This document shows, one piece after another, positions 1,011-6,010 of a DNA stretch of 22,046 nt. The translations under genes and the position numbers were made by a program. The first letter of the stretch is position 1. Each line of letters begins with the position of its first letter. The notes below the pieces were generated by a model. It worked only from the letters and a program-made list of their open reading frames with translations, did no database searches and was not told the DNA's origin. The stretch is from the IMG/VR virus record IMGVR_UViG_3300022928_000137, positions 1-22,046 of that record. One strand, written 5' to 3'. Origin of the DNA: a virus.

Positions 1011-1372
1011 TCAATGGTGAAGTTTGAGTTATTGACTTTAGACCTATCTTGAGGATGTTTAGCACCTTTATTTTTTTTACGATAATCACTGAACAACTTT
1101 TCTTTTACTGGATCATGTCCAGCTTTTTCTTTTCTTCTTTCCGATGCTTCTCCAGACTGGTCCCATAAATCACCAACTGTTGAAGCTTTAGCTTTCTCCC
1201 TAAACTCTTTTTGAGAGAAAGGGTCTATTCTAGTATCAATTGAAGCGTTTGGAACAGTATATACTCTGTCGTACTGAACTCCATCTACTGAATACTCGTG
1301 TGACTCATGAATAGTTTGAAAAACTGTTATTTGTTCTTTCGTCTCGGGGTGTTCGTAAATATACTCAGGCAT
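1007..1372 (-). CDS. FmdB-like small phage protein without zinc ligands
   Basis: A 121-residue protein beginning MPEYIYEHPETKEQITVFQ. This matches the N-terminus of FmdB/zinc-ribbon regulatory proteins (MPxYxYxC...), but the cysteine pairs that bind zinc in that family are missing: the ribbon positions are occupied by residues such as HPETKE. The middle (YDRVYTVPNASIDTRIDPF) and the charged, lysine-rich C-terminus look like proteins I know from marine phages, where they are annotated as FmdB-like or hypothetical. The gene starts four bases after the upstream GT4-like gene and overlaps the next gene by four bases, so it is an internal operon member. Function is unknown. A metal-free descendant of a zinc ribbon is an inference from the aligned N-terminus. 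Confidence 0.6.
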   Translation of the reverse strand: MPEYIYEHPETKEQITVFQTIHESHEYSVDGVQYDRVYTVPNASIDTRIDPFSQKEFREKAKASTVGDLWDQSGEASERRKEKAGHDPVKEKLFSDYRKKNKGAKHPQDRSKVNNSNFTIE

Positions 1373-1376
1373 TGAT

Positions 1377-2468
1377 TTATCCTTCTGTTAATATCTGATC
1401 AATTGAATCTACCATTTTCTTATAGGTGTATTCATCTTGAAGTTTTAGGCCCTCTTCATTAATTGGTGAAGATTTGTATCTTTCTACGGCTTCTTCACAA
1501 CCAGCAATGAACTCCTCCTCATTGAAAGTAAAAATATTACCCTGATTAAACGCACCGCCTTTACGGAAAAACACTCCGTCACTAGAGTCTTCTTTACCAT
1601 TGGGCTGTACCATGACGGTATTTTTTTCATTAGCCCAGTCTTGGTAACCAGAACTATTCAAAATAACTCCGTGCTTGCCTAGAGCTACTGACTGAAATTC
1701 AGGTAGCCCCCAACCTTCTCCACCCGACATACCTATAACAATATTCGAAGAGTTTAAAAAATCATTGTATAGGATATTTTTTTGCATTTGGCCAAGAAAA
1801 TTTACATTATAATAAGTTTTCCCTTCCAGTATTTGAGATAACTGATTTTTAAAATCCTGCTCTTTAAGAAATGGATTAGTTATAGCACATTGCAAAACAT
1901 AATCTTTATTATTCCCGTATTTTTTAACCCAAGCTTGGATAACTTCTTTATGATGCTTTCTTTTCTCTAGTTTTCCAGTTAGGTTAAATACAATTTTACC
2001 TTCTAGGTATTGTTGATCTTTTACTTTAAAGTTATTCTTATCAAACCCTAGAGGTACATAATGACAGTTCTGAACGCCTACTGATTCAAATATGTTTTTG
2101 GCGTGATTACTACTAAAAATTAAATTTTTCTGATTCTTGGCAACATTAACTTCATAAGTAGTTGGATGATCTAACTCATAAAAACTGAAAAGAGTTTGAT
2201 CTCTTCCATAAGAAGACAGACTATCCTGATTTAGATGCCATAATCTAAAAATAGGAATATTCCTATCATACTCCTCAAAAGACTTTTTAATTGATGAACT
2301 AATCCATTTTTGAAAGTCTTCGTTTGGTTCTTGTGAGCTTAAGTCAATTTTACCATGTGAGAAAATAAAAGGCTGCACGCCCCTCTCGTAATATTCACGC
2401 AGAAGGGCAGTGCTAACCTGACCAAAGCTTACACCGTTAATTGGTAGATGTAAGGCTATATCGGACAT
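1377..2468 (-). CDS. GT4-type (group 1) glycosyltransferase
   Basis: A 363-residue GT-B-fold glycosyltransferase. The donor-binding C-terminal domain is clear: after the linker VPLGFD (about 138-143), the strand IVFNLTGKLEKRKHHKEVIQ (about 159-178) is the familiar G-K-x-x-x-R-K phosphate-contacting segment. SGGEGWGLPEFQSVALG (about 248-264) is the EGxGLPxxE motif of group 1 transferases. The length is normal for the family. Its ATG overlaps the stop of the upstream 99-residue gene as TGATG, a sign of translational coupling. The partner glycosyltransferases downstream suggest a short glycan pathway rather than one isolated transfer. The family assignment is firm; the substrate is unknown. Confidence 0.85.
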   Translation of the reverse strand: MSDIALHLPINGVSFGQVSTALLREYYERGVQPFIFSHGKIDLSSQEPNEDFQKWISSSIKKSFEEYDRNIPIFRLWHLNQDSLSSYGRDQTLFSFYELDHPTTYEVNVAKNQKNLIFSSNHAKNIFESVGVQNCHYVPLGFDKNNFKVKDQQYLEGKIVFNLTGKLEKRKHHKEVIQAWVKKYGNNKDYVLQCAITNPFLKEQDFKNQLSQILEGKTYYNVNFLGQMQKNILYNDFLNSSNIVIGMSGGEGWGLPEFQSVALGKHGVILNSSGYQDWANEKNTVMVQPNGKEDSSDGVFFRKGGAFNQGNIFTFNEEEFIAGCEEAVERYKSSPINEEGLKLQDEYTYKKMVDSIDQILTEG

Positions 2469-2767
2469 CAGAACAATGCTTCATCGTTTTGTTGTTTTTT
2501 TGCAGCTGGAGCTGCACTACGATTACCCGATCCCTGCTCTTTCATTTCGCTCAAATAAACACGAAGATCTGGAGCATTTTCATTTTTAACTGAACCATCC
2601 TCATTATACTTATTTTTGTTTCTAAAAACAACAAGTGGAACTTTCTCAGAGGTACCTTTCATTGTGATGTGCCCCGTCATGTATTGAGAACCACTATTGC
2701 TTTTCTTTGCCCATAGAGCACCTAGTTCGCGCTCTTGCCAGTCGTTTTTCTTTTCTTCGTTAGACAT
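2468..2767 (-). CDS. Small DUF736-like phage protein
   Basis: The protein has 99 residues if it starts at the ATG at 2767. A longer reading from TTG at 2806 would add 13 residues, but that TTG is better explained as the -35 box of a promoter. The segment LGALWAKKSNSGSQYMTG, the strand KVPLVVFRNKNK and NAPDLRVYL resemble the small DUF736-like beta proteins of phages and mobile elements (about 100 residues, ending in NAPDYRVYL). The tail is low-complexity Ala/Gln/Lys and ends in NDEALF, loosely like the acidic tips of single-strand DNA-binding proteins. It lies between the sigma-like gene and a glycosyltransferase. Function is unknown; the family resemblance is moderate. Confidence 0.55.
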   Translation of the reverse strand: MSNEEKKNDWQERELGALWAKKSNSGSQYMTGHITMKGTSEKVPLVVFRNKNKYNEDGSVKNENAPDLRVYLSEMKEQGSGNRSAAPAAKKQQNDEALF

Positions 2768-2777
2768 AAGAGATTTA

Positions 2778-2806
2778 ATATTGCTAGTACTTTGCGTAAA
2801 TGTCAA
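2778..2806 (-). promoter_or_regulatory. Putative promoter before the DUF736-like gene
   Basis: On the minus strand, a perfect TTGACA (2806-2801) is followed after 17 bases by CAATAT (2783-2778), a weak -10. Transcription would begin only a few bases before ATG 2767, giving an almost leaderless message. The TTG of the -35 box is the apparent upstream start codon of the longer reading of this gene. Confidence 0.35.
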
Positions 2807-2814
2807 TTATTTTT

Positions 2815-3414
2815 TTAAATATTATCAAGGAATTTTTTACTGTCCATTTTTTTTCTCAACATAGACAGTCCTTTGTTGTGAAGGTTTATAGCAGTTTGTG
2901 TGCTGATTTTCATTTGCGAAGCAATTGACGCCCAAGATGGTTTTTTTTCTTCTTTCGAGTAACGAAGTGAAAAAATCTTTTCGATTCTGGAGTCTTTTAA
3001 TTGAGAAAGTATATTTTCAGTATATTCGAAGATTCTTGTATCTTTTTCCTCTTGGCGTTCATCTAGGACATCCAGCATATACTCTTCAAGAGTAACTAGC
3101 CTGTCTTTTGATTTTTTATTTAACTCGTTGAGGCAGTTGTATTTAATTTGATTAGCTAGCCAAGTAGAGAACTTTACTTTTTTTTCAGTATTAAAACTTT
3201 TAGCAGAGCGCCAAATAATTAAATTTTTTTCAGCATGCTTTTCATTTAAACTGATATCATTAATAGAAAAACTCTTAGAGTATCTCTTCATTATCTTAAA
3301 ACACAACCCCGCATGCCTCTCAGATAATTCTATTAAGCTATCCTCACAAGATTGACTCTTTATCCTTTCAACTAGACAGTTATCCGTTAAATTTTCCCTT
3401 GTTCCTTTTTCCAT
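2815..3414 (-). CDS. Phage-encoded sigma-70-family RNA polymerase factor
   Basis: A 199-residue protein with the two-domain plan of a group 4/ECF-like or phage late sigma factor. Residues about 15-45 resemble region 2.1. Residues about 62-103 (EKNLIIWRSAKSF, then FSTWLANQIKYNCLNELNKK) match regions 2.2-2.4, including the FxTWLxxxxxNxxL core. Residues about 158-190 (SWASIASQMKISTQTAINL) form a region 4 helix-turn-helix for the -35 element. The start at ATG 3414 is chosen over GTG 3435 because AAGGAG lies nine bases upstream of the ATG. A TATAAT on the minus strand at 3474-3469 and a palindrome at 3446-3458 lie upstream, suggesting its own regulated promoter. The likely role is to redirect host RNA polymerase to phage promoters. 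A non-sigma HTH regulator is less likely because region 2 is recognisable. Confidence 0.7.
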   Translation of the reverse strand: MEKGTRENLTDNCLVERIKSQSCEDSLIELSERHAGLCFKIMKRYSKSFSINDISLNEKHAEKNLIIWRSAKSFNTEKKVKFSTWLANQIKYNCLNELNKKSKDRLVTLEEYMLDVLDERQEEKDTRIFEYTENILSQLKDSRIEKIFSLRYSKEEKKPSWASIASQMKISTQTAINLHNKGLSMLRKKMDSKKFLDNI

Positions 3415-3445
3415 AAATCCACACTCCTTAAACACTTAAAGTAAT

Positions 3446-3458
3446 ACACTATAAGTGT
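3446..3458. promoter_or_regulatory. Palindrome ACACT-ATA-AGTGT upstream of the sigma gene
   Basis: A perfect inverted repeat with 5-base arms and a 3-base spacer; another ACACTT lies at 3432-3437. It sits just downstream of a minus-strand TATAAT (3474-3469), so it would cover about +4 to +16 of a transcript for the sigma-like gene, a usual place for a repressor operator. Related arms occur before the genes at 9485 and 17562. The protein that binds it, if any, is unknown. Confidence 0.35.
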
Positions 3459-3468
3459 CTGCATGAAT

Positions 3469-3474
3469 ATTATA
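3469..3474 (-). promoter_or_regulatory. Putative -10 box (TATAAT) for the sigma-like gene
   Basis: An exact TATAAT on the minus strand, about 55 bases upstream of the ATG at 3414. I see no convincing -35 box at 16-18 bases, so this is either an activated or non-sigma-70 promoter, or chance in AT-rich DNA. Confidence 0.3.
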
Positions 3475-3514
3475 TGAAATTTTACTAAAGTCTTCTATTT
3501 TTTTTAAAAAAAAT

Positions 3515-4108
3515 TTATTTATAAACCTTTTTAAGCCATTTAAACAGGTTTTGTGAATTAATTACAAGCCTGTTTCGGTCTGTTTCTGTTTTCCAGTTAA
3601 GTATGTAATCAGATTCTTTTTTTACCTTATCATCATTTTGCAGCTCATGAATGTTCGCAGGTTTTACAAAAACTCTTTCTTCGCCCACCTCTTGGTACCG
3701 AGAAACGTGAATTAAAATACCATTTATTTGATTTTTCAACCAATAACACTCGTCTTGTGGATATTCATTGTACCTAATATCTGTAATAATATTTACTTTA
3801 TTACGGTCTAAATCTTTTCCTAACAAACCTGTCCAATGTTTTCCTAATGAAGATTTTCTTTTTATCTCTCCATGAGCAACCAATATTGGCCTTATTAAAT
3901 CTTTATCATCTCTCGAGCAAGTTAAAGGATCAATAGAATACAGTTCTTTACATGTAGACCTTACTTCTGATTTTAAATTATGGGCTAAAGCCCTTTCTTC
4001 CACAGGTAAACCCATTCTGGTTAAAAAAATCCCAATAAGTTCAGCTAAAGTATTCTTACCTGAACCTGCTACTCCGGATATACCTACATTTTTAAACTTA
4101 AATTCCAT
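3515..4108 (-). CDS. Deoxynucleoside monophosphate kinase-like P-loop protein
   Basis: A 197-residue protein with an N-terminal P-loop, GVAGSGKNT (residues 12-20). The GK[DN]T form is what T4 gene 1 dNMP kinase has (SGKDT), rather than the usual GKS/T. The middle has KHWTGLLGK and the strand IITDIRYNEYPQDE, which fits the LID/acceptor region and conserved DxR of phage dNMP kinases. These enzymes phosphorylate dNMPs to dNDPs in the cytoplasm. Together with the dUTPase and ribonucleotide reductase in this window it would feed phage DNA synthesis. It is the first gene of the minus-strand operon and follows a long structured leader. No Shine-Dalgarno is visible before its ATG. A related adenylate kinase-like NTPase of unknown specificity is the main alternative. 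Confidence 0.7.
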   Translation of the reverse strand: MEFKFKNVGISGVAGSGKNTLAELIGIFLTRMGLPVEERALAHNLKSEVRSTCKELYSIDPLTCSRDDKDLIRPILVAHGEIKRKSSLGKHWTGLLGKDLDRNKVNIITDIRYNEYPQDECYWLKNQINGILIHVSRYQEVGEERVFVKPANIHELQNDDKVKKESDYILNWKTETDRNRLVINSQNLFKWLKKVYK

Positions 4109-4160
4109 CTTATTAATTAAACTTTATTAAACTTAATTATATTTATTTTAATAATAATAA

Positions 4161-4440
4161 ACTTTTTCCTAGAAAGTCGAAGTGAAACGGAGACTTTTCC
4201 CGTTTTTGGCGGTTTATTCCAAAACATCGGCAATCTTTTTACTTTTTCCTGAGAATACTCCCCGGTTAGCCTTTTTTGGGTGCGTGGTAGTTTCCACCCA
4301 TATGACATCACCTATACTACTCGCCCAGCTAAGTTCAACACCGCTGGTTCCTCCGGTTACAAGTCTCCACAGTAGAGCCGGACACATAAGATTGCGGACC
4401 TGCCTACCTTTTTAACGTAACAAGGCAGAAATGCTACGCG
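4161..4440 (-). ncRNA. Candidate structured RNA or long 5' leader of the kinase-sigma-glycosyltransferase operon
   Basis: This non-coding stretch is clearly richer in G+C than its neighbours (I count 91 of 180 bases in 4261-4440). Read on the minus strand from a promoter at 4475-4447, it can form these helices: 4428-4423 with 4405-4400; 4382-4378 with 4356-4352, enclosing 4377-4374 with 4368-4365; 4347-4343 with 4329-4325; 4320-4316 with 4291-4287; 4299-4295 with 4282-4278; 4224-4219 with 4209-4204; and 4197-4192 with 4178-4173. The pairs at 4320-4316 and 4299-4295 interlock as an H-type pseudoknot. The 10-base AGGAAAAAGT occurs twice (4250-4241 and 4170-4161). The short reading frames here have no recognisable protein features. 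It could be a stand-alone RNA or a cis-regulatory leader, since no clear terminator separates it from the kinase gene at 4108. I do not recognise the family; marine phage RNA motifs such as manA or wcaG are worth comparing. Confidence 0.5.
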
Positions 4441-4446
4441 TCTACC

Positions 4447-4475
4447 CTTTTATGAGGCAAACCTACACTTGTCAA
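4447..4475 (-). promoter_or_regulatory. Promoter driving the structured RNA and minus-strand operon
   Basis: On the minus strand, a perfect -35 TTGACA (4475-4470) and a -10 TAAAAG (4452-4447, four of six matches) are separated by 17 bases. Transcription would start near 4440, at the edge of the structured, GC-rich stretch. It faces away from the plus-strand promoter at 4508. Confidence 0.55.
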
Positions 4476-5787: not shown

Positions 5788-5816
5788 TTGACTTTAACTA
5801 ACCTCTTTAATATTTT
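5788..5816 (+). promoter_or_regulatory. Promoter for the 5825-6474 gene group
   Basis: TTGACT (5788-5793), a 17-base spacer, then TATTTT (5811-5816, four of six matches). It lies directly behind the hsp20 terminator. Transcription would start at about 5822-5824 and the gene begins at 5825, so the message would be essentially leaderless. Confidence 0.5.
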
Positions 5817-5824
5817 TTTAATAC

Positions 5825-6010
5825 ATGAACGACATCAAGATAAATAGAGATACTCATGATCAACTTATAAACCTTATAGATCAACTAATAGAATTTACGT
5901 CTCATCAAGATTCCTTAAACAGACAAACAGATCCCGTAAAGAATTGTGGAGAAGGTTTCTTGACTTCAAAGCTAAACTTGATTAAAAATAGTCTACTAAA
6001 TGACAACTAA
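5825..6010 (+). CDS. Small unknown phage protein (61 residues)
   Basis: A 61-residue protein, mostly predicted helical, with the N-terminal motif HDQLINLIDQLIEFTSHQD. It begins within a few bases of the inferred transcription start, so no Shine-Dalgarno could fit. Its last 11 bases overlap the start of the next gene in another frame, typical of phage packing. I do not recognise the family. Reality is supported by the promoter, the overlap and the packing rather than by homology. Confidence 0.5.
   Translation: MNDIKINRDTHDQLINLIDQLIEFTSHQDSLNRQTDPVKNCGEGFLTSKLNLIKNSLLNDN

Follow-up and report, generated by a model that had tools for sequence, protein, structure and literature searches.

A conserved, predicted RNA of about 280 bases with pseudoknots between a promoter and the kinase-sigma factor operon in a group of uncultured phages

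The sequence analysed is the 22,046-nt IMG/VR virus record IMGVR_UViG_3300022928_000137, and its full length is called the window (W) here; related loci carry L numbers. On the minus strand of the window, a deoxynucleoside monophosphate (dNMP) kinase gene (3515-4108; PHROG 139, E 1e-5) is followed by a sigma-factor gene (2815-3435; Pfam Sigma70_r2, PHROG 351) that lies beside the kinase in nearly all relatives fetched, and then by genes for a DUF736-like protein and a glycosyltransferase. The plus-strand neighbours encode a dUTPase, Hsp20 and ribonucleotide reductase, and nucleotide metabolism is thus found on both sides of the intervening region. This region holds the putative structured RNA (4161-4440, minus strand), which extends from the predicted transcription start at about 4440 to the second copy of a GGRAAAAGU motif. 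The initial annotation had noted a promoter directly before it on the minus strand, and its coordinates were confirmed (4447-4475; TTGACA at 4475-4470, 17 bases, TAAAAG at 4452-4447), with the RNA 5′ end coinciding with the start predicted from it. The form TTGAC[A/T]-N17-TA was retained upstream of the RNA across homologues; promoter-like sites in general are no commoner in the window than in shuffled sequences. The region had also been singled out by its composition, about half G+C in 4261-4440, and this holds (50.6% G+C, reached by only 0.2% of the 180-base windows in the 22 kb); 4260-4161 is not GC-rich but is very well conserved, and 4161-4440 overall has 46% G+C. A search for tRNA and tmRNA found none.

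The RNA was found in 11 further contigs (12 sequences including the window), in one copy per contig and with the same gene neighbours wherever the contig is intact. A search with the kinase gave three IMG/VR contigs containing the upstream region, one of them identical to the window, and more homologues came from a search with four aligned kinases. When all fetched loci were searched with profiles, W, L011-L017, L018, L019 and L122 proved to have the RNA upstream of the kinase. The family was defined with a hand alignment and a covariance model (R1) as the order PK1-P3-P4-P5-PK2-P9-PK3 of the elements described below, behind TTGAC-17-TA and before a dNMP kinase. The hand-aligned W, L011-L019 and L122 meet this definition; L053 has the right place and shares K2 and P7 by eye, with a borderline E of 0.64 with model R1. 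L172, a contig binned with a Dehalococcoidia metagenome-assembled genome, was found by DNA pattern, aligned by MAFFT and also counted as a member; its kinase side is unreadable. It holds the RNA in 1-1330 and bacterial-type genes in 1330-4091; since the contig is probably chimeric, the hint of a Chloroflexota host is weak, and L172 was not used as a case of the RNA without the kinase. Other DNA-pattern matches (L090-L111, L117-L167, L170 and L171) do not contain the RNA and were due to chance.

In all 11 intact loci the RNA lies directly upstream of the kinase, and the gene on its other side varies. In the nearest two relatives, the RNA is 88-92% identical, compared to 60-66% for the kinase gene (88.5% and 65.8% between W and L011). 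The initial annotation could place the RNA in no known family, and the scan it had proposed gave the same answer: the window and 14 related loci had no match in Rfam 15 (4227 families) at the gathering score, and allowing E up to 10 added nothing but chance-level matches that scored far under that threshold. Neither the region nor the kinase or the sigma factor had a BLAST match among 50,697 phage records, and the glycosyltransferase had one weak match; no record of that collection is related to the phages that carry the RNA. A literature search turned up no description of an RNA of this kind.

The predicted architecture comprises 12-13 helices and three pseudoknots (all coordinates on the minus strand). 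A 5′ pseudoknot lies at the predicted start, a long-range helix closes a domain that contains the second pseudoknot as well as three hairpins, and a 3′ helix with a probable third pseudoknot makes up the remainder; a purine motif occurs in three places. The 5′ pseudoknot, PK1 (4400-4439), consists of P1 (4438-4432/4422-4416), which is weak in L018, and P2 (4428-4424/4404-4400), which changes from CUGCC/GGCAG to CCGUC/GGCGG, UCAUC/GAUGG and AGAGC/GCUCU. The central domain is closed by P3 (4230-4395; 4395-4389 with 4236-4230), in which GCAAUCU/AGAUUGC is replaced by GUAAUCU/AGAUUAC, GUGUUCU/AGAACAC or GAUCUC/GAGAUC. P4 (4352-4382; 4382-4378 with 4356-4352) varies from UCCGG/CCGGA to UCCAG/CUGGA and CACGG/CCGUG, and its inner 3-bp helix (4374-4372 with 4360-4358) is UAC/GUA in the window and UGC/GCA elsewhere. 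The P5 hairpin (4325-4347; 4347-4343 with 4329-4325) occurs in five forms (CCAGC/GCUGG, CUAAC/GUUAG, CUUGA/UCAAG, CCAAU/AUUGG and GUUAU/AUAAC).

The central pseudoknot, PK2 (4264-4320), is the one already present in the initial annotation, and its positions were exact. It is formed by K2 (4320-4316 GUAGU with 4291-4287 ACUAC), which crosses P6 (4264-4312; 4312-4310/4266-4264 and 4306-4304/4271-4269) and P7 (4278-4299; 4299-4295 GGGUG with 4282-4278 CACCC). K2 also appears as GUAGG/UCUAC, GAGGG/UCCUC and GAGGC/GCCUC, and P7 as GGAUA/UAUCC. Behind P3 follows the P9 hairpin (4204-4224; 4224-4219 with 4209-4204), in which UUUGG/CCAAA changes to UUUGA/UCAAA, UUUAG/CUAAA or CUUAG/CUAAG. In the putative 3′ pseudoknot, PK3 (4173-4203), K3 (4203-4199/4191-4187) crosses P10 (4197-4192/4178-4173). 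P10 is invariant in all sequences and so speaks neither for nor against pairing, and K3 has a single two-sided change, from ACGGG/UCCGU to GCGGG/UCCGC in L172; on this basis PK3 is considered probable.

Single-sequence folding gave no signal on either strand (z = -0.21; 39 of 100 shuffles do equally well). Folding energy was thus no sufficient basis for accepting the helices, and the decision rested on the comparison of homologues. Eleven RNAs were parsed by hand into helices, with every string checked against the DNA. The parse showed that 12 of the 13 helices vary in sequence while pairing is nearly always kept, P10 being the only one that never varies, and at least 11 helices, including those of PK2, stay paired through changes on both sides. 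We then compared these changes with a tree-aware null in which the inferred substitutions were placed on random branches; this is our own simple version of the R-scape null, and the alignment was hand-fitted. P1, P2, P3, P4, P5, K2, inner P6, P7 and P9 reached p ≤ 0.001 (p = 0.0005 each for P1 and P2). PK1 is therefore well supported among the predicted elements and is as strong as PK2, apart from the weak P1 in L018. As a check, we used MAFFT's own alignment of nine homologues including L172, which had played no part in drawing the structure. In this alignment, 98.2% of the pair cells were paired and 23 of the 63 pairs showed two-sided changes, a number reached by none of 500 shuffles. As a control, structures slid by 1-3 columns were only 27-46% paired, with 1-5 two-sided pairs. 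RNAalifold, run unguided, recovered most nested helices.

The same comparison leaves practically no room for the view that there is no RNA element at all, only a decayed or small protein gene or a chance resemblance. Minus-strand reading frames of 64 and 57 amino acids do exist, but they are not kept among homologues, and the indels (1, 2, 5, 7 and 8 bases) do not come in threes and leave no shared reading frame; chance is contradicted by the number of two-sided changes relative to the shuffled and slid structures. A coding or chance origin of 4161-4440 is thus refuted by the homologues. The initial annotation had proposed covariation as the check on its new structured RNA and conservation solely as a coding frame as one possible refutation; compensatory changes were found with both the tree-aware null and the MAFFT alignment, in nearly all helices across the 12 sequences and in the named pseudoknot, whereas its count of at least eight helices and one pseudoknot was too low. 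Taken together, these comparisons of DNA sequence show that minus strand 4440-4161 encodes a conserved, predicted RNA of about 280 bases whose shape is maintained by selection. It adds an undescribed and well-supported RNA family with two firm pseudoknots and one probable one.

The purine motif AGGGAAAAGU is found three times, as M1 within the central domain, as a similar copy within the 3′ pseudoknot, and as M2 at the RNA 3′ end; the three GGRAAAGU copies in the window lie at 4250-4241, 4203-4192 and 4170-4161 on the minus strand. M1 (4241-4250) is AGGAAAAAGU in the window, AGGGAAAAG in near relatives and AGGGAAGU in L018, L019 and L122. M2 (4161-4170) repeats M1 as AGGAAAAAGU in the window and is likewise identical to M1 in L018, L019 and L122, so that the two change together between lineages. 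Six columns separate the window alone from its seven nearest relatives; three of these are G-to-A changes at the end of a G-run, one per motif copy, and two form a compensatory base pair. In the RNAalifold structure, the GGG of M2 pairs with a CCC before P3, and in the window GGA pairs with UCC. Since the M1/M2 repeat is not above chance within single sequences for most W-type RNAs, the argument rests on the parallel change only. We infer that the three copies may share one partner, in trans or, through alternative pairing, in cis; this would account for the parallel changes, and such a partner can be looked for.

Between the RNA and the kinase start lies an A+U-rich stretch (4109-4160, minus strand) without a Shine-Dalgarno (SD) sequence, which has the same character but another sequence and length in homologues. 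No terminator-like site was found on the minus strand from 4440 to 4108, no SD was found before the kinase, and no second sigma-70-like promoter was present between RNA and kinase in 9 of 10 W-type loci scanned; candidate promoters within the A+U-rich stretch gave no consistent site. Without a terminator and an SD, an ordinary riboswitch platform is not evident. Downstream, L011 (L002), L014 (L007), L015 (L003), L018, L019 and L122 have a gene of about 145 amino acids between kinase and sigma gene that is absent in the window (3435-3515).

Loci fetched via the neighbouring sigma gene include about 18 distinct relatives without an RNA at this site, which still keep the kinase and sigma gene together. 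In these, 6-8 bases separate the end of a promoter of this form from the kinase ATG, and their kinase mRNA would thus be leaderless. The distance between promoter and kinase ATG is therefore bimodal, 318-402 bases in RNA-bearing phages of the W type and 6-8 bases in the relatives without it. These TTGAC-N17-TATAAT-like promoters were seen in L031, L033-L036, L039-L041, L043, L052, L054, L066, L069-L072, L083 and L084, and several of the loci show the same arrangement before other genes (IMP dehydrogenase/GMP reductase-like and DUF736-like); these relatives seem to use leaderless mRNAs widely. The window itself has a 61-aa protein gene on the plus strand (5825-6010, within 5788-6010) with TTGACT-N17-TATTTT ending 8 bases before the ATG, for which a leaderless mRNA is predicted, and this arrangement is kept in L011-L017. 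Because the same promoter form stands directly at the kinase ATG in the relatives without the RNA, the RNA is most likely the 5′ leader of the kinase-sigma-DUF736-glycosyltransferase mRNA, as inferred from promoter and synteny without transcript data. The initial annotation had left the choice between such a leader and a stand-alone RNA; the leaderless relatives favour the leader, and a stand-alone RNA is not excluded.

Our best guess, for which we have no experimental data and only moderate confidence, is that the RNA is a cis-acting control element of the kinase-sigma operon that works through an RNA-binding partner. Host RNA polymerase would transcribe the leader and the operon from the TTGACA promoter. 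In the relatives, the corresponding promoter would give a kinase mRNA that can be translated at once, while in the window the folded RNA would sit between the promoter and the A+U-rich start region, where it may control ribosome access to the kinase start through a bound phage or host protein or a small ligand, the binding being inferred. This is supported by the compensatory changes, the higher conservation of the RNA than of the kinase gene in near relatives, its fixed place before the kinase, the bimodal promoter distance, the beginning of the RNA at the predicted start, and the lack of a terminator-like site or, in 9 of 10 loci, of a second promoter before the kinase. Of the features expected of a riboswitch, a conserved folded domain in an inferred 5′ leader is present, but no expression platform (a terminator/antiterminator or a masked SD) was found, and a simple switch would not usually be of this size and conservation. 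The A+U-rich stretch varies freely, so no direct contact between the fold and the start codon is visible. Control that does not involve an SD cannot be excluded.

In size, structural density and very high conservation, the RNA resembles a functional RNA more than a switch. A stand-alone RNA with a target in trans (host or phage RNA polymerase, ribosomes or defence, for example) remains possible though clearly less probable. Its release would depend on processing or on a non-canonical 3′ end behind the compact 3′ pseudoknot, which is followed by a U-rich stretch; the kinase would then rely on read-through or on a further promoter. A G+C-rich 3′ hairpin is present in the different RNAs that occupy this site in L046, L048 and L076, and a possible second promoter just before the kinase in L048 and L076 counts against cis control and would suit a separate RNA. 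However, a trans-acting RNA has to account for the missing intrinsic terminator, the missing second promoter in 9 of 10 W-type loci scanned and the invariable position before the kinase in the intact loci. The start at the first transcribed base and the long same-strand gene run behind it would also fit a nascent leader that modifies RNA polymerase, in the manner of put RNA from phage HK022, and lets it transcribe the long operon processively; neither an SD nor a terminator would then be needed nearby. This is unlikely, as no known antitermination RNA was matched in Rfam, the RNA is far larger than put, and the relatives manage without a leader. Very little supports a role of the transcript in priming or opening a replication origin, with a structured RNA and then A+T-rich DNA between divergent operons. 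Although the A+T-rich stretch, the divergent genes and a nearby minimum of the cumulative GC skew would suit it, the skew tracks gene direction throughout the window, the gene that immediately precedes the RNA in L018 and L053 is not divergent, and relatives without the RNA keep the kinase and sigma gene together.

Among known systems, the closest to the preferred cis-acting leader are pseudoknotted 5′ leaders that bind a protein or ligand, such as riboswitches and the phage T4 gene 32 leader. These share with the window RNA a folded, pseudoknotted leader and an A+U-rich start before a phage gene of nucleic-acid metabolism; the window RNA differs in its size of about 280 bases, its three pseudoknots, the lack of an SD to mask or a terminator, a first gene that encodes a dNMP kinase, and the lack of a known ligand. 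The put RNA of HK022 has two stem-loops, lacks a pseudoknot and is much smaller. Like put, the window RNA is structured and stands at the very start of an early phage transcript, so the position fits, but its larger, pseudoknotted fold does not, and no Rfam match was found. GOLLD, ROOL and OLE are larger and are not fixed in front of one operon. The window RNA, in contrast, is smaller and fixed before one operon, and it matched none of them in Rfam. Those large ornate RNAs were found by comparative search in uncultured phages or bacteria and are highly structured, with unclear function (PMC12286853; PMC2864571), and to that extent the window RNA, which is also large, highly structured, found by comparison and of unclear function, resembles them.

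The relatives with leaderless mRNAs and those with a 280-base leader form a natural comparison, by which the effect of a large leader on translation can be tested in a system of leaderless mRNAs. Two further sets of loci (L046/L048/L076 and L051/L074/L080/L081) carry different stretches of about this length behind a TTGAC promoter and before the kinase, and helices were recognised in them by eye. None of the seven could be included in the W-type family, as model R1 gave no match over the RNA. We suggest, tentatively and with considerable doubt, that large structured RNAs regularly occupy the site between promoter and kinase in a wide phage lineage that otherwise uses leaderless mRNAs. Several unrelated or very distant RNA classes would share one job there, such as controlling host RNA polymerase or recruiting or gating ribosomes independently of an SD, as a bacterial equivalent of an internal ribosome entry element. 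The stretch in L051 (3025-3412), L074 (3020-3436), L080 (3030-3392) and L081 lies behind the same kind of promoter, and its closing helix (GCGGUG/CACCGC, UUCGAUU/AAUCGAA, CCGAUU/AAUCGG) and inner helix (CCAAUC/GAUUGG, AUCGAUC/GAUCGAU) change in concert; a piece of 14-15 bases recurs at or in the kinase start of L051 and L074. The stretch in L046 (2455-2901), L048 (2935-3379) and L076 (2600-3014) is the one with the G+C-rich 3′ hairpin; the promoter-like sequence of L048 and L076 lies shortly before the kinase, and a AAAGGAAAGTTT-like motif is repeated in L046 and L076.
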